From the IMG/VR virus record IMGVR_UViG_3300023257_000135, positions 1 through 22,367 of that record: 22,367 bases of DNA. One strand, given 5' to 3'. The DNA comes from a virus. The position numbers were made by a program, and so were the translations under genes. Under the pieces are notes generated by a model. The model had not been told where the DNA came from and ran no database searches. It was given only the letters and a program-made list of their open reading frames with translations. Of the stretch, positions 1,178 through 21,329 are shown piece by piece; the first letter of the stretch is position 1, and every line of letters begins with the position of its first letter.

Positions 1178-3109
1178 ATGCCTCATATATTAGATCCAAA
1201 TAAAGAAGGAAGAAAGCAAGAGTTTGATAATATTAATTATGACTATAACTATCCAGGAGATATGAATCTTAAGCCTGGAAGTGAACTTCATGAAAAGATT
1301 AAGACAGAAGTCATGAAGAGAGCTCTTGAAGCTACTGGTCCTATGGCTAATAGATTTGACTCATGGAATAAGATTGATGAGACTCTGACTACTTATATTC
1401 AGACAGATGATGCAGAAGAAGATATAAAAGAGAAAGATCACAGAAAACCTGTCTCGATTATATATCCTTATTCTTATGCTATTCTTGAGACAATTCTTGG
1501 TTATCTTCTTGCAGCCTTCTTTCAGGAACCTGTATTTAGATACGAGGGTGTATCACCTGAGGATACAATGGGAGCTATTATGCTTGAGAAGATAGTTGAC
1601 CTTCATTGTAATAAGTTTAAGATGGTTCTCAACCTCCATACAATGTTTAGAGATTCTCTGGCATATGGCTTTGGAGTTGTAGCGCCTGAATGGAAAAAGG
1701 TAACAGGAAAACGAATCATAACACAGACAATTCCTAGATGGTTTGGCCCTGACGAGAAGAGAAAAGTTCTCAAAGAGGGAATTATTATGGAAGGTAATGC
1801 TTTGTCTAATATAGATCCTTATCTGTGTCTTCCAGATCCTAATGTCTCAATAGCAGATATTCAGAAGGGTGAGTTCTTTGGTTGGATAGAACAAACAAAT
1901 TTCTATGATCTGTTGACAGAAGAACAAAACTCAAATGGAAAGGTCTTTAATGTTGAGTATTTGAAAAGTGCTATTGGTCGGAGAACGTCTATATATGCTG
2001 CTGATCAATCAGGCAGGGAAAAGAAAACTGGTAATTCAAAGTTTAATACTAATGCTTCTACTAATCCTTGTGATGTAATAAGAATGTATGTGAAGTTGAT
2101 TCCAAGGGAGTGGAAGTTAGGAGATAGTAAATATCCAGAGAAATGGTATTTTGCTCTTGGAGCTGATTCAGTTGTTATCGAAGCAAGACCTGTGGGTCTT
2201 ATTCACAATATGTTTCCGTTAGCAGTTTCAGCCCCAGATTTTGATGGTTATAGTTCAACGCCTGTATCTCGTATGGAGACGCTTTACGGTCTTCAGCATA
2301 CACTTGACTGGATGTTTAATGCTCATATAGCTAATGTAAGAAAGGTTATAAATGATACGCTTATAGTTGATCCTTATCTAATAAACGTACCTGATCTTGA
2401 AGATCCTAGACCAGGCGGTATTGTAAGGACCAGAAGACCTGCATGGGGAAGAGGTGTAAAAGACTCCATTATGCAATTAGCAGTGTCAGATGTTACTAGA
2501 GGTCATATAGCAGACACTGGGTTGATTAGGGAAGCAATGGATAAGATTGCTGCAACTGATTCATGGACTATGGGGAGTTTGAGACAGGGTGGTCCTGAGC
2601 GTCTAACAGGTAAAGAATTTGAGGGAACTCAGCAGGGTGGCTATACAAGGTTGGAAAGAATAGCAAAGTTGATTGGTGTCCAAGCTATGCAAGATATTGG
2701 CTATATGTTTGCTAATCATACTCAGCAGTTCATGACACAAGAGCTCTCACTTACAACCACTGGTAGATGGCAAGAGGTTCTTGCTCAGGAATATGGTGAG
2801 AATACTCATATGAAAGCTTCTCCATTTGACGTTCTTATTGATTATGATGTTAAGGTAAGAGATGGTTCTGTACCAGGTAGTAACTCTTCTGGTGTATGGA
2901 TGCAGATGTGGGAAGCTCTTTCAACCAATCCTGAGCTTCAGCAGAAGTTTGATATTGTAAAGATCTTCAAACATATAGCAAGAAATAGTGGGGCGAAGAA
3001 TGTTGATGAGTTTATAAAGATTCAGAAACAGCCTACGGAAGATGTGATGAGACAGGCAGAAGCTGGTAATGTTGTACCAGTGGATGAGATCTTAGGAGGA
3101 GGACAATAA
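1178..3109 (+). CDS. Portal protein (podovirus-type)
   Basis: A 643-residue protein of the size and composition of podovirus portal proteins, which form the dodecameric ring at the capsid vertex for DNA entry and exit. Supporting features are an N-terminal helical region rich in acidic residues, the long central part with RMETLYGLQHTLDWMFNAHI (about residues 365-384), the GGIVRTRRPAWGRG segment, and the helical, Gln-rich GTQQGGYTRLERIAKLIGVQ stem-like region. It directly precedes the scaffold and capsid genes, as expected. An AAAGGA site precedes the ATG. The stop overlaps the next start (TAATG). Confidence 0.85.
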   Translation: MPHILDPNKEGRKQEFDNINYDYNYPGDMNLKPGSELHEKIKTEVMKRALEATGPMANRFDSWNKIDETLTTYIQTDDAEEDIKEKDHRKPVSIIYPYSYAILETILGYLLAAFFQEPVFRYEGVSPEDTMGAIMLEKIVDLHCNKFKMVLNLHTMFRDSLAYGFGVVAPEWKKVTGKRIITQTIPRWFGPDEKRKVLKEGIIMEGNALSNIDPYLCLPDPNVSIADIQKGEFFGWIEQTNFYDLLTEEQNSNGKVFNVEYLKSAIGRRTSIYAADQSGREKKTGNSKFNTNASTNPCDVIRMYVKLIPREWKLGDSKYPEKWYFALGADSVVIEARPVGLIHNMFPLAVSAPDFDGYSSTPVSRMETLYGLQHTLDWMFNAHIANVRKVINDTLIVDPYLINVPDLEDPRPGGIVRTRRPAWGRGVKDSIMQLAVSDVTRGHIADTGLIREAMDKIAATDSWTMGSLRQGGPERLTGKEFEGTQQGGYTRLERIAKLIGVQAMQDIGYMFANHTQQFMTQELSLTTTGRWQEVLAQEYGENTHMKASPFDVLIDYDVKVRDGSVPGSNSSGVWMQMWEALSTNPELQQKFDIVKIFKHIARNSGAKNVDEFIKIQKQPTEDVMRQAEAGNVVPVDEILGGGQ

Positions 3110-3390
3110 TGGGAGATAAGATTGATGATAATAAACCCTTTTCAACCCCAGCTCAGGTAGAGGACTTTCTAAAGTATTCTCCCATCTGGAAGGATATGGA
3201 GAGAGAACTTAAAATCTGGCTGAGTGAGCTTCATATGTTACTTGAGAATCTTGATGGAAATATGTCTCATAGGGAGTTGGATAGATTTGGTGGAAGTGCA
3301 GAAGCAGTAAGGAATATGGCAAATTTTCCTGATGTACTCAAAGTAAATGCTGAGAGTGGTAAGAGGAAGAAGAAGGTAAGTAAAAAATAA
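3109..3390 (+). CDS. Small hypothetical protein between portal and scaffold
   Basis: A 93-residue, helical, charged protein ending in a strongly basic tail (KRKKKVSKK). It starts in a TAATG overlap with the portal gene and has an AGGAGG site inside the portal's last codons, so the two are translationally coupled. I do not recognise the family. Its position between portal and scaffold suggests a minor head component or an assembly factor. Confidence 0.75.
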   Translation: MGDKIDDNKPFSTPAQVEDFLKYSPIWKDMERELKIWLSELHMLLENLDGNMSHRELDRFGGSAEAVRNMANFPDVLKVNAESGKRKKKVSKK

Positions 3391-3393
3391 CTA

Positions 3394-3410
3394 TGTTCGA
3401 TTAATGAACA
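3394..3410 (+). other. Short hairpin before the scaffold gene
   Basis: TGTTC (3394-3398) and GAACA (3406-3410) form a 5-bp stem around a 7-base loop, just before the AAGGGAGG ribosome binding site of the scaffold gene. It could be an operator-like half-site pair or a weak RNA hairpin. There is no U tract, so it is not a terminator. Confidence 0.35.
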
Positions 3411-3425
3411 AAGGGAGGCAAAACG

Positions 3426-4346
3426 ATGGGTGATGAAGATAAAAAAGTTACTGATTTAGAGAAGGAATTAGATGACATTGAGATTGACACACTTTCTGTT
3501 TATGAACCTATTGCTGAGGAAGATAAAAATGAAGCTGAGACTGATGTTAAAACAGATCTGGAGGACGCTAATAAATCTGAAGCGTCGGCTAAAGCGGAGG
3601 TTCTTGATGAGACGAAGACAGAAGAAGATAATAAAGCTGCTGAAGCGGAGACGGATGAAGATACAAAGAGTAATGAGGACACAAAGAAAACAGAAAAAAC
3701 TACTGAAAAAGTTGTTGAAACAGAAGCTAAGCCGACTCAAATAGAGTTGCTTATGGCTGAAGTTGAGCGTCTGAGTGGACTGCTTCCTGGTGAAGTTAAA
3801 GTTGAGACAGAAGAAGAAAAACCTGTTGCTGATAATGTTATTCCTCTGAAGATTGATGATGATGGAAAGGTTCATGACTTTATCGGAGATATAGATATGG
3901 ATGATGTTGCTTCTGATCCTGCTGTTCTCAATAAGATCCTTAGTCAGGTTATTAAGAGAGTTCAGCAACAGACAACTGAGCAGGTTCTACTAAGCATCCC
4001 TCAGGTGGTAATGTCTCAGGTAAATCAGCAGTCGCATTTTAAAAGAATGGCAGACAAATTCTATGATGATAATAAAGATCTGGTGAATGTAAAGCAGGTT
4101 GTAAGAGCATGTGCTCAGCAGATTCAGCTGGCTAATCCTGAATGGGAAGTTGAAAAGGTTTTTGCTGAGACTGCAACTAAGACTCGTGAGACACTTGGAA
4201 TGTCTGCTCAAAAAGTAGAAAGTGTTGTTAGTGGCAATGGAATACCTTCAGTAGAAGATGTAGCCTTTGGTAAATCTAGTGGAGGTTCAAGATCAAAAAC
4301 GGAACGTAAAAAATCAGCTCTACAGAAAGAGCTTGATGAAGCTTAA
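3426..4346 (+). CDS. Capsid scaffolding protein
   Basis: A 306-residue protein with a highly acidic, low-complexity N-terminal half (residues 1-105, full of Glu, Asp, Lys and Thr). A helical middle (IELLMAEVERLSGLL) and a more ordered C-terminal half follow, ending in a basic, Ser-rich tail (residues 285-306). This composition, and its place after the portal and before the capsid gene, fit the internal scaffold that directs procapsid assembly and is then removed. The basic C-terminus is where scaffolds of this type often bind the coat protein. It has a strong AAGGGAGG site 8 nt before the ATG. A protease domain is not visible. Confidence 0.8.
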   Translation: MGDEDKKVTDLEKELDDIEIDTLSVYEPIAEEDKNEAETDVKTDLEDANKSEASAKAEVLDETKTEEDNKAAEAETDEDTKSNEDTKKTEKTTEKVVETEAKPTQIELLMAEVERLSGLLPGEVKVETEEEKPVADNVIPLKIDDDGKVHDFIGDIDMDDVASDPAVLNKILSQVIKRVQQQTTEQVLLSIPQVVMSQVNQQSHFKRMADKFYDDNKDLVNVKQVVRACAQQIQLANPEWEVEKVFAETATKTRETLGMSAQKVESVVSGNGIPSVEDVAFGKSSGGSRSKTERKKSALQKELDEA

Positions 4347-5867: not shown

Positions 5868-5888
5868 ATGGCTTTTTTAGGAATGCGT
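5868..5888 (+). CDS. Major capsid protein, exon 1 (7 codons)
   Basis: ATG at 5868 stands 8 nt after AAGGAG (5854-5859) and encodes MAFLGMR, after which the frame meets TAA inside the intron. Joining codon CGT (5886-5888) to GGA at 6775 gives MAFLGMRGNGDWTTDQRPK, which reads as the natural N-terminus of this capsid family. The exon ends in TGCGT, which pairs with GCGCA at 5903-5907 in the intron (P1), including the U-G wobble expected at a group I 5' splice site. Confidence 0.88.
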
Positions 5889-6774
5889 TAACTTAATAAC
5901 CGGCGCATTTAAAACTAATCTAAAAACGGGGAACCTCTCTTAATTGAGACAATCCCGTGCCAAACCGTTACGGGAGGTGTAGAGACTATGAGCAAAGTAA
6001 TTGATGAATGGGAACAAGAAAGATTAAGTGATATGATTAATAGTGTAAAAAATCTTAATAAATTTGATTTAATGAGTGCTATTCATTGGATGATTCTAGG
6101 AGATGGTAGTTTAACTAAACCTCTAAGAGGTCACAGTAGATTGGAAATATCTCATACAGATCATTTAGATTATTTAGAATGGAAAAAATCTATTATTGAG
6201 AATTTGACTGGGGCTGAAATTAAAGATAGGCCTCCTTCAAAAACTGGATATTCAGATAAATGGTCTCAGCGACTTAGATCAAAAACACATCCAGTTTTTA
6301 CTAAACTAAGAGAACGTCTTTATGGAGTTTTTGGACGAAAAGCTATTGATTTACATTCACTTAAACTTTTAACTCCTATGGGATTAGCCATCTTATATCA
6401 AGATGACGGAAGTTATTCCTTTTCTAATACTAGGGGTTATGAAGATAGAAATGTTTTAATACATACACTAGCTTTTGGAGAAATTGAGAATGAGGCTTTA
6501 GCTAAAGTAATTATAAAAGCATCAGGTCTTATTTTTCGAGTTAATAGAGTTAAAAAACCTAGTGGTATTAAATATAGATTAAGACTCAGATCTAAAGATA
6601 TAGATAAGTTCTTTGATTGGATTGAGCCTTATATAGTTCCCTCAATGCTTTATAAGCTTGGAAGAGATAGTGAGTGGGAGTTAAATCCTACTTAGTGAGA
6701 TAGTCCGTACTCTATAGTGATATAGAGAGCTAAACAGAAATGCTTTAGCCATTCGATAGAATGTAACAAACTAG
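5889..6774 (+). ncRNA. Group I intron 1 in the capsid gene (td-like, probably IA2)
   Basis: An 886-nt self-splicing intron. P1 is TGCGT (exon) with GCGCA at 5903-5907. The P/Q core (ACGGGGAACCTCTC about 5926-5939, AATCCCGTGC 5951-5960) closely resembles the T4 td intron core. P7 is GACTAT (5984-5989) with ATAGTC (6700-6705). Downstream are P9, CTCTATA/TATAGAG with a GTGA tetraloop (6710-6727), and two further hairpins (GCTAAA/TTTAGC 6729-6749 and CATTC/GAATG 6750-6763). The intron ends in G6774, as group I introns must. It is inserted in phase 0. I could not place P3 and P8 with confidence, and P10 looks weak. An endonuclease gene lies between the two strands of P7. Confidence 0.88.
5988..6695 (+). 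CDS. LAGLIDADG homing endonuclease in intron 1
   Basis: A 235-residue protein with two LAGLIDADG-type helices: residues about 31-41 (AIHWMILGDGS) and 131-142 (MGLAILYQDDGS). The acidic residues D39 and D140 are the likely metal-binding catalytic pair. Two motifs indicate a monomeric enzyme with a pseudo-symmetric DNA-binding saddle. It would cut intronless capsid alleles near the GMR/GNG codons and so spread the intron. Alternatively or additionally it may act as a maturase. GGGAGG (about 5972-5977) is the ribosome binding site. The ATG (5988-5990) overlaps the 5' strand of ribozyme helix P7. The codon use is noticeably more A/T-rich than in the flanking structural genes. Confidence 0.9.
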   Translation: MSKVIDEWEQERLSDMINSVKNLNKFDLMSAIHWMILGDGSLTKPLRGHSRLEISHTDHLDYLEWKKSIIENLTGAEIKDRPPSKTGYSDKWSQRLRSKTHPVFTKLRERLYGVFGRKAIDLHSLKLLTPMGLAILYQDDGSYSFSNTRGYEDRNVLIHTLAFGEIENEALAKVIIKASGLIFRVNRVKKPSGIKYRLRLRSKDIDKFFDWIEPYIVPSMLYKLGRDSEWELNPT

Positions 6775-6916
6775 GGAAATGGTGACTGGACAACAGACCA
6801 GCGCCCTAAAAACTGGCGGCAGAAAGTGCTTCAGCTTTATCCAAATGGAGATGCACCACTTACTGCCATACTTTCAATGATGAAGGAAGAATCAACAGAT
6901 GATCCAGAATATAACT
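6775..6916 (+). CDS. Major capsid protein, exon 2
   Basis: A 142-nt exon encoding 47 codons plus one base, with no start or stop of its own: GNGDWTTDQRPKNWRQK and onward to DDPEYN. It begins at GGA directly after the intron-terminal G6774 and ends at T6916, the U of the P1 wobble pair of intron 2. TAACT (6912-6916) pairs with GGTTA (6929-6933). The encoded residues contain the conserved start of the coat protein (RPKNWR, LYPNG, PLTAILS), which shows it is exon and not intron. Confidence 0.88.
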
Positions 6917-7786
6917 AGAACGTCCACTGGTTACTTCGGGTGAAACCCCGTCGATTAAACGACAGAAATTGCTGGAAACTCCTAAAGCCTATCTTGACCA
7001 AAGCGTTAAACTAAGGAGGATGATGATAATGGACAATCAGCATGGAAACGTACTACATGTTATGGATAAATATTTTGAGGTTATGGCATATTCTATAGGT
7101 GCAATGACAGGAGATGGAAGTGTAAAAAAATATCTCCGAAAATCTGAAGAGGGAAGAATGTTTACTGTCTATAATGCAAGTATTAGTTCTATGGATGAAG
7201 AGTGTGTAGGAAAGGTTTGTTATGAAGTTGATGTATTATTTCATAAGAACTTTAAACCTACTCCTTATGTAAGTCCAAAAGGAACTAAGATGTATAGAAT
7301 AGGTTTTGGCAGTGAAGAGACTTTTAACTTCTTTAATTACTTTATCAGAGAAAAATTAACAGTACCAGATGAAGTTTTTAGAGTTTCTAGAAAGGCTAAG
7401 ACAGATTATATAGCAGGTCTTTTTGATACAGATGGATGGATTACATCTCATAATGGTTATTATAGACTTGGCTTTGCCTCAAGACATAGAACATTTGTAG
7501 AGGATGTAGCAAGACTCTTAATGAAAACAGGTGTAAAGGTTGGAAAGATTAATGAGGATGTTTCTGGATATGGTACACTCATGTTCAGGATAACTCCGAA
7601 TCTCAGATCCTTTATAGAGAAAGGTTATTATTTTCATATACAGAGAAAGGCTAAAAGAGTTGAAGAATATATATACTCTATGAAATTAAGTCATAAAATG
7701 GTGCGACCTTCAGAGACTATAATGTCGAATCCATGACTATGGATTAAGATATAGTCCAGCAATAAGTGAAAGCTTATTGGTTTAAG
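6917..7786 (+). ncRNA. Group I intron 2 in the capsid gene (IA1-like)
   Basis: An 870-nt self-splicing intron with a nearly complete core. P1 is TAACT/GGTTA (6912-6916, 6929-6933) with AG/CT continuing the helix. P10 pairs TCCACT (6923-6928) with the first six bases of exon 3, GGTGGA. P2 is CGGG/CCCG (6937-6950). P3 is CGACA (6960-6964) with TGTCG (7723-7727). P4 is TGCTG (6970-6974) with CAGCA (7038-7042). P7 is GACTATA (7715-7721) with TATAGTC (7750-7756). P8 is AATCCA/TGGATT (7728-7745). P9 is an 8-bp stem with a GAAA tetraloop (7760-7779). The last base is G7786. The insertion is in phase 1, splitting a Trp codon (T|GG). Confidence 0.92.
7029..7736 (+). CDS. LAGLIDADG homing endonuclease in intron 2
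   Basis: A 235-residue protein with two LAGLIDADG helices: YSIGAMTGDGS (about residues 21-31, D29) and YIAGLFDTDGW (127-137, D135). It is a likely monomeric homing endonuclease, distinct in sequence from the one in intron 1. I chose ATG 7029 because AAGGAGG (7013-7019) is 9 nt upstream. ATGs at 7020 and 7023 are too close to that site, and an upstream TTG at 6969 lies inside helix P4. The coding frame contains the P4 3' strand at its beginning, and P7 5', P3 3' and the P8 5' strand at its end, so protein and ribozyme share sequence at both ends. Confidence 0.9.
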   Translation: MDNQHGNVLHVMDKYFEVMAYSIGAMTGDGSVKKYLRKSEEGRMFTVYNASISSMDEECVGKVCYEVDVLFHKNFKPTPYVSPKGTKMYRIGFGSEETFNFFNYFIREKLTVPDEVFRVSRKAKTDYIAGLFDTDGWITSHNGYYRLGFASRHRTFVEDVARLLMKTGVKVGKINEDVSGYGTLMFRITPNLRSFIEKGYYFHIQRKAKRVEEYIYSMKLSHKMVRPSETIMSNP

Positions 7787-8910
7787 GGTGGACAAAAAGC
7801 CTGGCAACACAGGCAGCTACTGTTGTAAGTGTATGGAAAACGGCAGATCTTTCAAGTACTGAGTATACTACAACTGGGGCGGCTGGAGATGTCCTCTATG
7901 TTAATATTGGTACTGAAGCAGCTTGTAAAGAGTTTCGTGCTGGGCATCAGGTGCTTCTGAGGAATACTGATAACTATGCAGATGATACAAATGCTAAGGT
8001 TACCAGTGTAGTTCTCAACGGGGCATCTAGTTACATTGCAGTGAAACTGCTTGAAGCTGATCCGACCACGACTGGTATAGCTGATTGTGATAGGATTCTG
8101 ATTGTAGGTAATATCAACCCTGAGGGTGGTGCTATGCCGTCAGCGATTGCTTATGATCCATCCAAGCATTACAATTACACTCAGATCTTTCGAACTCCTC
8201 TGAGCATAACTCGTACGGCTCGAAAAACCAAACTTCGTACTGGAGATCAGTATAAGGAAGCCAAACGAGAATGTCTTGAACTCCATTCAATTGAGATGGA
8301 AAAGGCGTTTCTGTGGGGGATTAGAACTGAGAACACTGGAGATAATGGTAAACCTGAAAGAACAACTGCTGGTCTGGTAAGATCTGTTATTGATAACAGT
8401 GGTAACGTTTCTGACTTTACTTCTGATGCAGATTTCACTGATACCTCATGGCTGTCAGGTGGTGAGGAATGGCTGGATATTCAGCTTGAACAAATCTTCC
8501 GTTATGGTTCTCAGGATCGTCTGGCCTTTGCAGGCTCGGGTGTTGTTCTGGCAATCAATAAACTCATTAAAGAATACGGTAATTATGAGTTTACATCAAA
8601 AACAACTGACTATGGAATTAAGGTCAAAACGTGGAGTACTCCTTTTGGAGACCTTCATATTAAGATTCACCCATTGTTTAGTTATGAAGTAACAAATCGT
8701 AACTGTATGGTGGTCTTTGACCCGAAAGATCTTAACTATCGTTATATTGATGATACTAAGTTCTATGCTGATCCCGATAAACAGAATACAGGACGTAATA
8801 GAATTGATGGTTCTGACGAGGAATACCTCACTGAGGCTGGCCTTGAATTTCATCACTATGCAAAGACAGGTTATCTTACTGGCTTTGGTTCTGACAACGG
8901 CACTCCTTAA
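7787..8910 (+). CDS. Major capsid protein, exon 3 (bulk of the protein)
   Basis: This exon carries about 374 of the 428 residues of the coat protein. The full gene is join(5868..5888, 6775..6916, 7787..8910), a perfect 429 codons with the stop. The exon starts GG|TGG|ACA, completing the split Trp codon and giving DPEYNWWTKSLATQ. Key segments are INPEGGAMPSAIAYDP, YNYTQIFRTPLSITRTARKT, RTGDQYKEAKRECLELHSIE and EYLTEAGLEFHHY. They match the HK97-fold coat family of short-tailed phages that I believe Pfam lists as DUF5309 (SU10-type). It assembles on the scaffold into the procapsid. A reader that looks only for ORFs would see a shorter protein starting at GTG 7951 and lose 54 exon 1-2 residues plus 55 from exon 3. 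Confidence 0.92.
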
Positions 8911-15496: not shown

Positions 15497-16449
15497 TGGA
15501 TGCTACATCTTTTTTAGAAAATCCTAAACCAGCAGCCCCTGTTGATCTCTCTGGATTATCTCCTGAGGAAATCAGAGGAGTATCTGGAAGTAGAATAGCT
15601 CGTGATCAAGGCATACAAAGAATGATGGAAATGCTGGCAGGTCAGGCAGGAAGAGAATCGACTATAGCTGCTCAGAAAGCCTCGGCAGGCTTGGCAAGAG
15701 CTAGACAGAAAGAGATTGAAAATCCTGAGATGTCTGAGATAACTGATCCAGTAACTAAGAAGACTTATAAAGTCAAACGAGCAGATATTACTAGTAGTCT
15801 TAAAGATATGGCTAATATAGAACGATTAGCTAAAGCCGGAGAACTTGATGATGAGAGGTTGAGTCAGCTAAAAAATACTATTCCTACAATGATAAATGGA
15901 AAGAGTTATAATCTCTCAACAGCTAATTATATTGCTATTACTAAATCTATAGCTGATGGAAAAGTAGCTGAGCAGAAACAAACTTCTATAGATAATCTTG
16001 CAGGACTAACTTTTAAACAGATGACAGATCCAGATCATATACAAGATCTTATGACAGCTAATCCAAATGCTTTTACTGCTTATATTAATAGTAGACGAGA
16101 AGGTCTTACACCTGGTGAGGAAGCTCGTTTTACTGGAATGGAATATAATCTTGGTCAGAAACTTTTTGGAACTGAAGCTTCGAAAGAGAATCCAGATGAT
16201 TCAGATATTGCTTCTTATAATGCTATAGGTAGATCTCTTAAATCTCACTACGGTGCATTGAAAGTTCCTAAGACTAAGAAGTTTATGGGTATTGATAGAT
16301 TATCTTCAGATCAGACTCAGGCTGTCTCAGTACCTCTTCCTCCTGGATATACAATGGAGGATGTTTATAGGGCTGCCAGATTAAAAAAGGTTCGTGTTCA
16401 AGATGAATTACTCAGAATCTATAATAACAATAAGGGAGTATCTAAATGA
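15496..16449 (+). CDS. Helical internal virion (ejection) protein
   Basis: A 317-residue, largely helical, charged protein without membrane segments. It starts in a TAATG overlap behind GGAGGAGG and ends in an ATGA overlap with the giant gene, so all three genes are translationally coupled. Its place matches the mid-sized ejection proteins (T7 gp15-like position), but I see no family-specific motif. A C-terminal basic helix (YRAARLKKVRVQDELLRIYN) may bind DNA or a partner. Confidence 0.6.
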   Translation: MDATSFLENPKPAAPVDLSGLSPEEIRGVSGSRIARDQGIQRMMEMLAGQAGRESTIAAQKASAGLARARQKEIENPEMSEITDPVTKKTYKVKRADITSSLKDMANIERLAKAGELDDERLSQLKNTIPTMINGKSYNLSTANYIAITKSIADGKVAEQKQTSIDNLAGLTFKQMTDPDHIQDLMTANPNAFTAYINSRREGLTPGEEARFTGMEYNLGQKLFGTEASKENPDDSDIASYNAIGRSLKSHYGALKVPKTKKFMGIDRLSSDQTQAVSVPLPPGYTMEDVYRAARLKKVRVQDELLRIYNNNKGVSK

Positions 16450-19400
16450 ACGACCAAGAGTTCTTAGATAATTATAATAAAGCTACTGGTATAACTACAG
16501 ATATTATTCCTCAGACACAAACTCTTCAGGCTCCTCAGACTTCTGTAGATTTGTCTATTACTGCAGAGGATAAACAGTTCCTCTCTGATTATGATCAAGC
16601 TATAGCTGGTACTGGAATTGAAACTCCTGCTCCTATTCCTGAATCTAAGTTGACTCCTGAGACAGTTCTAAACAAAGAGATGTCTCGATACACTGATCCT
16701 ATGAACGCTGGAATAGAAGCTGCTACTCATCTTGGAGTTGGAGTTCTTGCATATTTTCCATCTCTTGCTGCAGGTGCTGGACAGTTTATTCATGATAAGA
16801 GTATAAATGTTATGACAAGCATGTCTGAAGCTTTTCAGATAGACAAGAAACAAGCTCTTCAGAAGAAACTCTCTAAAGCTAAATCACTTCCTGAGTATCA
16901 AGATATCTATAATGCAGATAGGTATGAGAAGGCTAAGCGTGAACTAACATTAGAGCAGATGAAGAAAACTCCTGAACAGATTAGAGCTAATATAGATGAT
17001 GCAATGAGTTTAATTTCTGAGATGACTGTTGGTCAGTTAGAAGAACCTAAATATAAGTCAACTAAAGATGCTCTTAAGCTTGCAGATTTAGCACTATCTG
17101 AAGTTCTTTTATACTATCCAGCAAAGGCTGATAAATGGCTAACTGAGAAAGGTTTTCCGAATGCTGGCTGGATGTTTAAGTCAGCTGGTGAACTTACTAT
17201 GTTTAAGATGATGCATTCTTCTGGTAAGGAAGTTAAAACTACAGTAAATAACTATATGAAATTCTTAGAGGATATTAGACCTGAGCTTTATAAACCAGAT
17301 ATATCTATTGAGAAAATAGAGAGTAGGACTAATGAGTACTTTGATTCTATTGATAAACCTGAAGGAAAAGCTTTTAAGAGACCTACAATAAGTCAGATGA
17401 AGAAAGCGCATCAGTATGCACGTGATCTTAAAATGTCTGAGGAAGTTAGAAGAAATCTTGCTGAAGAAATTACTGGTGTAAGAACCATGAAAAAGATGAA
17501 TCGTGATACAGCAAAGCAATTCTTAGATAGACTTAGAGAAATGAAGAAAGATGGTAAAAAACCTGTTGAGACTACTAAACTAAAATCTAGATCAGAACTT
17601 CCTGAGGGAGAAGAATCAGATCTGGATATCCCTTATAGAGATCAGCCTGGTGGAAGAGTTCAGCCTATGGAAAGTATTCCTCCAGCAGATGTTCCTAAGA
17701 CTATTCGTATGATGGGTTTAGATAAAGAAGGAATAGGTCTTGATTATATAAGAGATCTTTCAAAAGAAACTCAGGCTATTGCTTTAAATAAAGCTCCTGT
17801 TAAAAAGGGTATGGTAACTGTTTATCGTGCAGGACAGAGTGAGATTAGACAAGGTGATTTTGTTACCTTCTCAAAAGAATCAGCTAAGAAATACTTAGAA
17901 GGTGCTGGAAAAGAGGCAAAACTCTATACAAAAGAGATACCTACTAATGAATTATATTCACCTAATCCTAATGAAGCATTATGGTTACCAAGAGAGATAG
18001 AGAAGTCTACTAAGCCAGTACCTGCTGAACTCAAGACAGATGTAGCTTCTGAGTCAGTGGGTACTGAGGCTAAAGGAAAAGGAGAGCCTGATAGAAGTGC
18101 AGAAGTAAAGAGATGGGTTGCTGAGCAGGCAGAGAAAGAACCTACTCATGAAGTAGAAGCACGTTCATTATTTGTAGCAAGAGTAAAACAACTTGCTGAT
18201 CTTACTAGTGAACAAGTTCAGGATCTTTTTTTACGTGATGAGTTTACAGAGACTATAATGTCTAGAATAGATGAGGCATTTAGAAGAGGTGCAGGTAATA
18301 AGGAGATAACAGCTGAAGCAAGAAGGGTTGCTGATGAGGTTATAAAGCGTCTTGGAAAAGAGAAACCTGTAAAATTAGCTAAGTCTGTTGAGATAAAAGA
18401 AGTAGAACCTGTTGAGCCTACCAAGCCCCAACCATCTAAACCTATCATCTCTGAGTCTATCCAGCAAGTAATCTCTGACGACATCATAATCGCTGAGGAT
18501 ATGGGTATCTATGCTAATGTTAAAGATATCATCACAGGAAAGAAAAGAATTGGAGTTGATAAGATCTTAACAGAGCTCAAAAAGAGTCCTGATTATGTTC
18601 AAGATATGAAGGACTTCGGTTATAGTGATCCTGATATCAGATCTGCTATTCGTGCTATCAAAGCTGAGGGTGGAAATAAGACAGCGTTGAAGCATATAGA
18701 GAATGAGCTTAAGGCTGAGACAGAAGCTGTCGAGAGAATTAAGACAGAGAAAAAAGCTAAGGTTGCTGAGCCTGTTAAACCTGCTCCTGAATCTCTTCCT
18801 CAACCTAAGCGAGTCGATCCTGAGACAGGTCGTAAGCCTGGGGTTAAAGAAGACCTAACCAGAAAACCAACAGAACCTGATGAGGTTGTTGAGGCCTACC
18901 TTGCTTCTCGAAAGCCAATAACTAAAGATGGTAAGGTGGTTAAAACAAAAGCTATTGCAAAACAACAAGTTGCTGAGATGGGTATGCAAGGAGAACTGGT
19001 TAAAAACACTGACGGGGAAGGCTGGGTAGTCGAAAAAGCAAAAACAAAAAAAACAAAAGCACAGTTAAAAAAAGAAAGAGAGTTGGAACAAAAACAGTGG
19101 GAGGAGATTCTCAAAGATGAGGAGCTTGGAGATCTTGAGGATCAGTTTGGTGAGCGGGTTGATGTAGATGTTGATAAGGTGGGAGGTGACAGGAGCTTTC
19201 CTTTTAATGAAAAAGGCTATATTGAGCTTGATACTAAACTCATAAAGGATATAAAGGATAGGATCAAAAAGGGATTCTTTTCTCGAAACAGAGCTATTAA
19301 GGAACTCCGTGTACGAGGAGCTACTGATAAGGATATTCTTAAAGTATTCTCTGATGCCTCTGTCCGTATTTTGAACGAAGGTAAGGAATCTAAATGGTTG

Positions 19401-21329
19401 AAGAAAGGACAAGATCCTCTAGCACTTCTTAAACGCAGAAAACTTCCTGGAAAGGAGAAGGGAAAGGCTCCTGCTGTTACTCGTGGTGAAGCTCATATGA
19501 TAGCTACTATAAATGATATGCCTGTAAGGCTGACATCTGAACATCTCTCATGGGAGAATGCTATTAGGACATTTGAGAAACTTCCTCCTGCCGTAAAGGA
19601 GACATTTTATAGAACTGTTAAGGAGGGAGAGAGTTTAGCATTTGATCATCTTCGTGAGATTCTTAAACGTTCAAAGAAGATCAGGAATTCTGTACCTTAC
19701 ATAAGCCATAAGCGAATTGGGATTCATGCTATTGCTAAACAACCTGATGGTCTTGAAGTTCTTGCTCAGCAGGGAATAACAAAGATACCTAAGCTGAGAC
19801 CTAAGGAAATCAAGGCATATGAATCTTTAAGAGCTATTTATGATGAGTTGTTTCCTCTTATTAATAAAGCAAGAGAAGCTGCGGGTGAGAAACCTTTTCC
19901 AAAGATGGAGAATTACTTTACCTGGGTACAGGATCTTATGCAGATTGAGAAAGTAAAAGATGGAAGTCTGTTTAGTGATACTAGGACTATTGAGAGTAAG
20001 ATGGCGGAGCATAAAAGAGTTCCAAGCTTTCGCTTTGCCAAATTCAGAGCAGGTCCTGAAAAAGCACGTAGGCTAAGTCTTAATCCTTTCTCTGTCATGG
20101 ATGGATATGCTAAGTCAGCTACTCATTATATTGAGATGGGACCCAGGCTAGCTAAGCTTAATGAACTCATGACAGAGAAATTTGGTATGGCAAAGAATGC
20201 TCCTAATGCTTATAACTTTATGAGACACTGGTTGGATTATCAAGCTGGTAAGATTCCTGCATGGGATATAGCTAATCCAAAAACCAGACGAGCTATGCAG
20301 GTTCTCAATGGTAATGTTGTTTATTCTCTTCTTGCTTACAACGTGCGATCAGCTCTGATACAGCCTGCCGCTTTGGCTAGCTCATATACTGTGCTTGGTG
20401 AATACTATATGGCAAAAGGTATTGCTCAGATTATAAGACCTGCTAAGTGGAAGATGGCAGGAAAGCTCTCTAATGTTCTTAATACAAGATCTCCTGAAGT
20501 AGCCCTATATGAAGCTATGCATATGGGAAAGAAACTTCCAGGTCAGGTTAAGCAGAAGATTGCTCAGGTTGGTACAGCTCCTTTGGCTGTTCTTGATAGT
20601 ATAGCTGCTAGAATTACTTGGCTTGGTGCGTTTGAGAAGGCCACAAAGAGTATGAAGCTTGGAAAGAGGGAAGCTATAAACTATGCAGATGATATTGTTA
20701 CAAGAACTCAGGCTTCTGCAGCTAAGAGTGATGTAGCTCCAATACAGAGAACTCAAATAGGAAAGACGATTACATCTCTCCAAACCTTTGTAATCAATCA
20801 CTGGGGCTTTCTAACTAAAGATGTTATGGGAATTAAGAATGCTGACATAAAGAATCCTACAAGAGTTAAAAATGTTATTAGGTTTGTTCTGGCCACAACA
20901 GCTGTTAATGCTTTCTATGAGGATGTTCTTAAAATGAACTCTCCTAATCCAACTCCTATTAGAGCTTATCAAGAGAAGTTTGAGGAGACTGAAGATTCTG
21001 CTAAAGCCTTTGCAGCAAGTCTAAAAGAGATTGCTGAATATATACCTATATTTGGCGGGCGTCTAAGATATGGAAGTGAGATAGGTGGACCTGTTATGAC
21101 TGAGGCTCTTAAACTTATCGGTAAGGGAGATATGCAAGCAGCGATAAAACTTCTAGGTGTATCTGGTTCTAATCAGTTCTTTAAAATGCTGAGAGCTAAA
21201 GAACGTGGTGGATCAGGAGCTGATATAGCTCTTGGAAGATATGTAGAACCTCCAAAGAAGAAATCTACATCTCTGACTTCTGGCTTTGGAGGTTCTGGGG
21301 GATTGTCTGGTAAGATTAAAGATGATTAA
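16446..21329 (+). CDS. Giant internal virion (DNA ejection) protein with ART-like segment
   Basis: A 1,627-residue protein. Residues about 93-115 are hydrophobic (LGVGVLAYFPSLAAGAGQF). Residues about 430-520 hold an ADP-ribosyltransferase-like pattern: VTVYR461AG, FVTFS476KESAKKYL and NPNE510ALW. Pro/Glu/Lys-rich linkers follow (about 640-670 and 767-808), then a Lys-rich coil (about 860-882). The C-terminal 600 residues carry the SFRFAKFRAGPEKARR, RSALIQPAALASSYT and TRTQASAAKSDVAPIQRT segments. These are typical of large polyvalent ejection proteins in podovirus-like phages, which travel with the DNA and span the host envelope (T7 gp16 position). AAGGGAG precedes the ATG. The stop overlaps the convergent exonuclease stop. 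No lytic transglycosylase motif is evident. Confidence 0.75.
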   Translation: MNDQEFLDNYNKATGITTDIIPQTQTLQAPQTSVDLSITAEDKQFLSDYDQAIAGTGIETPAPIPESKLTPETVLNKEMSRYTDPMNAGIEAATHLGVGVLAYFPSLAAGAGQFIHDKSINVMTSMSEAFQIDKKQALQKKLSKAKSLPEYQDIYNADRYEKAKRELTLEQMKKTPEQIRANIDDAMSLISEMTVGQLEEPKYKSTKDALKLADLALSEVLLYYPAKADKWLTEKGFPNAGWMFKSAGELTMFKMMHSSGKEVKTTVNNYMKFLEDIRPELYKPDISIEKIESRTNEYFDSIDKPEGKAFKRPTISQMKKAHQYARDLKMSEEVRRNLAEEITGVRTMKKMNRDTAKQFLDRLREMKKDGKKPVETTKLKSRSELPEGEESDLDIPYRDQPGGRVQPMESIPPADVPKTIRMMGLDKEGIGLDYIRDLSKETQAIALNKAPVKKGMVTVYRAGQSEIRQGDFVTFSKESAKKYLEGAGKEAKLYTKEIPTNELYSPNPNEALWLPREIEKSTKPVPAELKTDVASESVGTEAKGKGEPDRSAEVKRWVAEQAEKEPTHEVEARSLFVARVKQLADLTSEQVQDLFLRDEFTETIMSRIDEAFRRGAGNKEITAEARRVADEVIKRLGKEKPVKLAKSVEIKEVEPVEPTKPQPSKPIISESIQQVISDDIIIAEDMGIYANVKDIITGKKRIGVDKILTELKKSPDYVQDMKDFGYSDPDIRSAIRAIKAEGGNKTALKHIENELKAETEAVERIKTEKKAKVAEPVKPAPESLPQPKRVDPETGRKPGVKEDLTRKPTEPDEVVEAYLASRKPITKDGKVVKTKAIAKQQVAEMGMQGELVKNTDGEGWVVEKAKTKKTKAQLKKERELEQKQWEEILKDEELGDLEDQFGERVDVDVDKVGGDRSFPFNEKGYIELDTKLIKDIKDRIKKGFFSRNRAIKELRVRGATDKDILKVFSDASVRILNEGKESKWLKKGQDPLALLKRRKLPGKEKGKAPAVTRGEAHMIATINDMPVRLTSEHLSWENAIRTFEKLPPAVKETFYRTVKEGESLAFDHLREILKRSKKIRNSVPYISHKRIGIHAIAKQPDGLEVLAQQGITKIPKLRPKEIKAYESLRAIYDELFPLINKAREAAGEKPFPKMENYFTWVQDLMQIEKVKDGSLFSDTRTIESKMAEHKRVPSFRFAKFRAGPEKARRLSLNPFSVMDGYAKSATHYIEMGPRLAKLNELMTEKFGMAKNAPNAYNFMRHWLDYQAGKIPAWDIANPKTRRAMQVLNGNVVYSLLAYNVRSALIQPAALASSYTVLGEYYMAKGIAQIIRPAKWKMAGKLSNVLNTRSPEVALYEAMHMGKKLPGQVKQKIAQVGTAPLAVLDSIAARITWLGAFEKATKSMKLGKREAINYADDIVTRTQASAAKSDVAPIQRTQIGKTITSLQTFVINHWGFLTKDVMGIKNADIKNPTRVKNVIRFVLATTAVNAFYEDVLKMNSPNPTPIRAYQEKFEETEDSAKAFAASLKEIAEYIPIFGGRLRYGSEIGGPVMTEALKLIGKGDMQAAIKLLGVSGSNQFFKMLRAKERGGSGADIALGRYVEPPKKKSTSLTSGFGGSGGLSGKIKDD

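Follow-up and report, generated by a model that had tools for sequence, protein, structure and literature searches.

A predicted ADP-ribosyltransferase-like domain in a giant late viral protein and its phage family

Gene order of the window and modules of the giant late protein

The window, by which we mean the whole stretch of DNA analysed here, is a 22,367-base IMG/VR virus record. Its plus strand carries endolysin-like and holin genes, a portal gene, part of a major head protein gene, several unassigned genes and, last, the gene of a giant protein, beyond which the minus strand encodes a DNA polymerase exonuclease subunit and a dCMP deaminase. The features referred to below, including the ADP-ribosyltransferase (ART)-like core, are as follows:

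1178..3109, plus strand: portal / head-tail adaptor protein (phrog_332, E 1.5e-12; phrog_1216, E 1.8e-4)
7951-8910, plus strand: main part of the major head protein
16446..21329, plus strand: giant late protein, 1627 aa, final gene of the structural block, ahead of the opposite-strand replication genes
17391..17567, plus strand: GemA-like segment, residues 316-374 (phrog_286, E 1.4e-6; Pfam GemA, 16.1 bits, under the cut-off of 27)
17814..17987, plus strand: ART-like core, residues 457-514 (R461 strand, GDFVT strand, helix, strand, E510 strand)
17826..17828, plus strand: R461 codon, the family's invariant Arg (72/72 in alignment A3)
17859-17873, plus strand: F472/T474/S476
17865..17867, plus strand: T474 codon, Thr/Ser position ending the GDxVT strand, candidate second active-site residue (T/S in 14/15 rows not fetched via the motif)
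17973..17975, plus strand: E510 codon, conserved Glu (69/72 in A3, partly selected for)
20031..20870, plus strand: C-terminal region, residues 1196-1475, common to other giant phage proteins

The giant protein is named by no profile, and the LPD profiles in the Pfam search do not match it; the term "ejection protein", which the initial annotation applied to it, was drawn from its size and position. Along it lie the ART-like segment, the GemA-like segment, which sits just upstream of the ART-like core, and the shared C-terminal region. The motif strings VTVYR461AG, GDFVT474-F-S476-KESAKKY and PNE510ALWLP hold the residues V-Y-R461, F-V-T-F-S476 and N-E510 exactly where the initial annotation had placed them in the 1627-aa protein when it read this segment as ART-like with an R-S-E signature.

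Elsewhere in the window, at 5869-8910, the major head protein gene is seemingly interrupted twice. It starts with MAFLGMR at 5869, is first interrupted by a LAGLIDADG endonuclease ORF at 5988-6695 (phrog_11023, E 3.8e-18), continues in an exon-like stretch at about 6781-6918 and, after a second endonuclease ORF at 6969-7736 (phrog_4645, E 4.4e-8), resumes with the remaining head protein (phrog_1328). Rfam places a group I intron at 7652-7778, under the gathering score (28.5 of 50 bits).

A domain family in phages

Searched directly, the 127-aa segment gave nothing significant in Pfam, no match among PDB sequences, a single non-significant match at E 1 among phages, four plasmid records at E 2-7 (not significant) and, among viral_contigs, a near-identical record only. 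No known ART was reached by sequence search in Pfam, NCBIfam or PDB, and a match of a 64-aa piece to Pfam E1_FCCH (E 0.075) was taken as chance. Two weak matches, L006 and L007, can be aligned across the whole motif and served as bridges. L006 yielded no further relatives; L007 led to clear phage relatives, including the giant protein of Vibrio phage 1.185.O and "ParB C-terminal domain" proteins. L007 itself is a Vibrio replicon in which S24 peptidase and Y-family polymerase genes (umuDC-like) are immediately followed, at 3308-4342, by the gene of a 345-aa protein that has the domain in its short form.

The family was collected with two DNA patterns for GD[W/F]VT....YA, which gave at least 240 IMG/VR stretches. 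Among the matches listed, 204 of the 231 long-enough stretches have a downstream E motif, and at least two of these 204, L151 and L179, carry it without being family members; nine of the 240 stretches are cut too short and 27 are without the E motif (mostly unrelated). Five stretches without the motif (L105, L109, L133, L145 and L226) were returned to alignment A3, and L192 is cut. A3 comprises 71 of the 83 listed references (72 rows including the window), and the 12 references outside it are mainly those in which a long insertion separates the R strand from GDWVT, with R present, plus some close rows; alignment A4 consists of the same 71 references minus L109. The long form of the domain follows the consensus YRGxHxxP...PxDxY...VTIYRAVP...INxGDWVT...YAxxHG...EFGY, of which the window has a diverged short version that lacks the conserved YxxxH half.

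A family profile built from 96 of 172 long segments, with the window excluded, scores the giant protein at 27.9 bits over residues 437-505 (E 1.2e-10 for one sequence). By comparison, full shuffles reach at best 6.0 bits (407 scored of 500), 20-residue local shuffles at best 6.8 bits (488 scored of 500), and shuffled and reversed versions together stay at or below 6.8 bits; the best of the other window ORFs scores 3.1 bits (43 scored of 90). Because the profile is independent and its score stands so far above every shuffle, the motif lies beyond chance level. Additionally, hhalign pairs the family with the window segment at a probability of 96.8%; the alignment keeps R, GDFVT and E in register and reaches E510. 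The region around the motif is charged and poorly modelled, as one would expect if a charged, low-complexity linker resembled an ART by chance, but the profile score, the shuffle controls and the hhalign result refute this explanation and the core is modelled confidently (see below), which leaves it extremely improbable. Judged by these comparisons of sequences, the window segment is a member of a real domain family.

Predicted fold and candidate active site

The AlphaFold model of the window segment (72-row alignment) has a mean pLDDT of 68. Specifically, the 10-residue blocks of model residues 81-120, which form strand, strand, helix and strand, reach pLDDT 94-97 and the next two blocks (model residues 121-140) reach 89 and 85, and the N-terminal half, with pLDDT below 50 in places, is not confident. 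The AlphaFold model of the relative L036 reaches 97-98 over most of the domain. Foldseek against the PDB returned no match at E 0.001 or better, the best being the Vis ART at 0.94 for the window and 0.08 for L036. In VIA-align, which only re-aligns Foldseek's own list, we classify as ART folds 41 of the 44 entries for the window model and 27 of the 28 domain-covering rows for the L036 model (Z up to 4.9); the other six of the 34 L036 rows match N-terminal helices. In these counts, CNFy, IcmQ, TreTu, TreX, RES, Tse6 and 6kyf are taken to be ART folds. The top rows for the window model are Tpt1 (8tg4, Z 5.4, rmsd 3.7, 66 aligned), TreTu (7zhm, Z 5.2, rmsd 3.7, 70 aligned) and KptA (9ld3, Z 5.2, rmsd 2.9, 61 aligned). 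Because these Z values, at most 5.4, lie under the level at which one match stands alone, the fold assignment draws its weight from the agreement among many unrelated ART families, which align to the same residues in both models, and from no one match.

If the alignments are ungapped at their ends, the VIA row ends place R123 and E179 of L036 on positions 7 and 112 of cholera toxin A1, and R461 of the window on position 9 of pertussis S1; we take cholera toxin A1 R7 and E112 and pertussis S1 R9 to be catalytic residues. Viral models gave 15 significant matches, several of which are known family members (Myrna, Skog) and none of the named ones of which is called ART; rows below significance include proteins named ADP-ribosyltransferase and ART-PolyVal-like. 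Taken together, the models make an ART fold of the domain highly probable.

The family does carry another label. phrog_2579, "ParB C-terminal domain", is matched by 68 of the 70 family members, and some of the copies in mycobacteriophages bear the name ParB-like nuclease, which would suit a ParB-type C-terminal dimerisation or DNA-binding domain. However, the label may name position only, our guess being that copies lie C-terminally in ParB-like proteins, and gp129 of the mycobacteriophage Pumpkin is the domain alone. ParB structures appear in neither fold list (Foldseek or VIA rows), an absence that excludes nothing. With these points on either side, we consider a ParB-type domain very improbable and retain the predicted ART fold.

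An Arg occupies the R461 position in all 72 rows of A3 and in 21 of 21 sequences of a further non-window set, and it was not part of the DNA patterns used for collecting the family. A Glu occupies the E510 position in 69 of 72 rows of A3, most of which were chosen with the E motif, and in 20 of 20 aligned sequences of the further set. Ser replaces Arg in the weak relative L006, Glu is missing in the trio L105/L109/L133, and L103 is without the Arg strand. That some members have lost the R was considered and rejected, as 11 of the 16 E-motif segments with no R motif close by have YR further upstream behind an insertion; two of the other five are cut by the stretch start, two are non-members and one (L103) is without R. 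The proposal of an ART-like domain inside the giant late-gene protein is thus supported, as far as sequence and models carry, by a predicted fold that is ART-like in AlphaFold and VIA-align rather than unrelated to ART, and by R461 and E510, both of which are conserved in homologues.

The finer claim of an R-S-E order and spacing holds for the order and fails for the spacing, since R-15-S-34-E is compressed relative to cholera toxin A1, whose catalytic residues, in the classical R-S-E spacing, we take to be R7, S61 and E112. S476, which had been put forward as the signature Ser, is not conserved (S 40, N 12, D 9 and T 6 of 72 rows in A3); it looks like a helix cap and is unlikely to be the second catalytic residue. 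The STS middle motif of the R-S-E clade is absent, with GD[WF]V[TS] in its place. T474 is a better candidate for the second residue than S476, its position being T in nine, S in five and G in one of the 15 rows not fetched through GDWVT. The active site may accordingly be read as R461 ... T474 (or F472) ... E510, with the middle residue putatively assigned.

Several of these observations would also fit an ART fold without catalysis, in which case the domain would serve the giant protein structurally or in binding and keep R and E for folding or ligand binding: the window copy is the short form lacking the YxxxH half, R is lost in L006 and E in L105/L109/L133, and S476 varies. On the other hand, R is invariant and E nearly so across very diverged sequences, stand-alone genes of 109-129 aa included, which would be unusual for purely structural residues. 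We judge a non-catalytic module unlikely and a catalytic domain likely.

The position two residues before the Glu (E-2) is never E or Q in the 67 readable of 71 family sequences, where it is I/L/A/P/V/M/F/S/Y, and the window has P508 there; this speaks against an arginine-modifying ART of the ExE subtype. The lack of ExE or QxE would be in keeping with consumption of NAD+ or of a nucleotide or nucleic-acid signal (NAD glycohydrolase, counter-defence) in place of host protein modification, as would the top VIA rows, KptA/Tpt1 (which act on RNA 2'-phosphate) and TreTu, and the location of T4-like and mycobacteriophage members among DNA metabolism or small accessory genes. Yet no partner gene speaks for it, and a fold rank at Z of about 5 cannot separate ART subfamilies; we hold this alternative to be distinctly unlikely.

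Genomic settings, proposed role and relation to known systems

Among 223 other ORFs with the domain, measured stop to stop on contigs that are often cut, 86 are at most 350 aa long, 89 fall between 350 and 1000 aa and 48 have at least 1000 aa. In Vibrio phage 1.185.O, the domain lies in a 2514-aa late protein after head-closure genes. The C-terminal region of the window's giant protein recurs in four of 46 other large ORFs that were fetched only for the ART domain (L029, L071, L087 and L201). In a neighbour survey of six loci selected from 16, with ten neighbours examined, stand-alone domain genes adjoin terminase and portal genes in L119, L054 and L027, a portal gene in L206 and L189, and a minor head protein gene in L022. 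Because the domain gene lies outside the structural block in Pumpkin, the Vibrio phage VH7D and Myrna, virion delivery is not general. As observations on architecture, the giant ART-bearing proteins of L029, L071 and L201 also have a RadC-like JAB domain (E 1.5e-11, 5.9e-10 and 2.2e-10, respectively), an 823-aa ORF from position 6661 of L041 has up to three domain copies in one protein, and L066 has, on its minus strand, two different domain genes in one locus, one of 109 aa and short form only.

The giant protein of vir555 (L004), whose given host is Methanomicrobiales, has a C-terminal region homologous to that of the window, and the window host could for this reason be an archaeon. In its N-terminal half, vir555 residues 489-531 weakly match ART-PolyVal (PF18760, E 0.0072, under the cut-off); a direct sequence link between our family and ART-PolyVal was looked for without success (hhalign 0.1% to the vir555 copy). 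Xanthomonas phage CP2 combines the window-type C-terminal region with LPD22 (E 9.9e-26), and L029 has an LPD22 match under the cut-off. Since the C-terminal region is common to proteins with different ART modules, giant proteins of the window type may exchange ART modules.

We propose that residues 457-514 represent, in its short form, a domain family that is widespread in phages and folds as a compact ART, in which the first-strand Arg and the last-strand Glu would frame a presumed NAD+ pocket with Thr474 (or Phe472) in the middle. The domain would be one module of a giant late multidomain ("polyvalent"-type) protein that most likely enters the host together with the DNA, and we infer that NAD+ would be used to ADP-ribosylate a host macromolecule, or be hydrolysed, at the start of infection. 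Delivery with the DNA seems probable for the window phage; ART fold, catalysis and delivery taken jointly come out slightly better than even, a level that holds because the three estimates are correlated. On balance, we thus lean towards an ART-fold module of a giant late protein that would enter the host with the DNA and use NAD+.

At somewhat less than even chance, we further suggest that R-[T/S]-E domains could form an unrecognised large class of phage ARTs in giant virion, terminase/portal-linked, T4-like and more than 100 mycobacteriophage settings, in the first two of which they would be DNA-delivered and act before phage gene expression. At present its members are listed under "ParB C-terminal domain" or as hypothetical proteins. 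Phages use ARTs as one of their first-line weapons. If the family is enzymatic, an overlooked NAD+-using effector would stand under a misleading label in 173 isolate phage records and more than 200 metagenomic stretches, and small stand-alone copies, such as the one of 129 aa in Pumpkin, make this prediction testable with laboratory strains.

Regarding known systems, the phrog_2579 proteins Myrna gp78, Pumpkin gp129 and Skog gp173 belong to the same family by sequence, the direct match of the window being weak (E 0.012); they bear a ParB label without ART assignment, whereas the window copy is a diverged short form in a giant protein. Pfam and NCBIfam have no model for the family, and no entry in them is matched by more than one of the 70 members; literature searches on phrog_2579, on phage ParB C-terminal domains and on ARTs in internal virion or ejection proteins found no assignment of the family. 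KptA/Tpt1, TreTu, Vis, ParT, Arr, RES and PARP16 give fold rows on the same window-model stretch (best Z 3.6-5.4) and no detected sequence relation; several of them use other active-site residues.

T4 Alt (Alt/VIP2, R-S-E clade) is also a phage ART with R and E, from which the window family differs in having no sequence match, a compressed spacing, no STS and no ExE. According to a published account, Alt is packaged and injected. Passages of PMC11699363 deal with the prophage MuF-type ART toxin Bxa. The polyvalent-protein survey states, in the passage that deals with them, that Alt/VIP2-type R-S-E ARTs are absent from genuine polyvalent proteins, and ARTs in such proteins are described as H-Y-D in the corresponding parts of Iyer et al. 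2017 (PMC5512222) and of the 2022 viral NAD+ survey (PMC9503650). ART-PolyVal (PF18760; Tox-ART-HYD2 clade) is likewise an ART-fold domain in giant phage polyvalent proteins, but PF18760 matches neither the window nor any of the 70 family members, and its active site is H-Y-D as opposed to R...E. Against these published H-Y-D ARTs of polyvalent proteins, what is new here is an R...E ART-like family in giant phage proteins.
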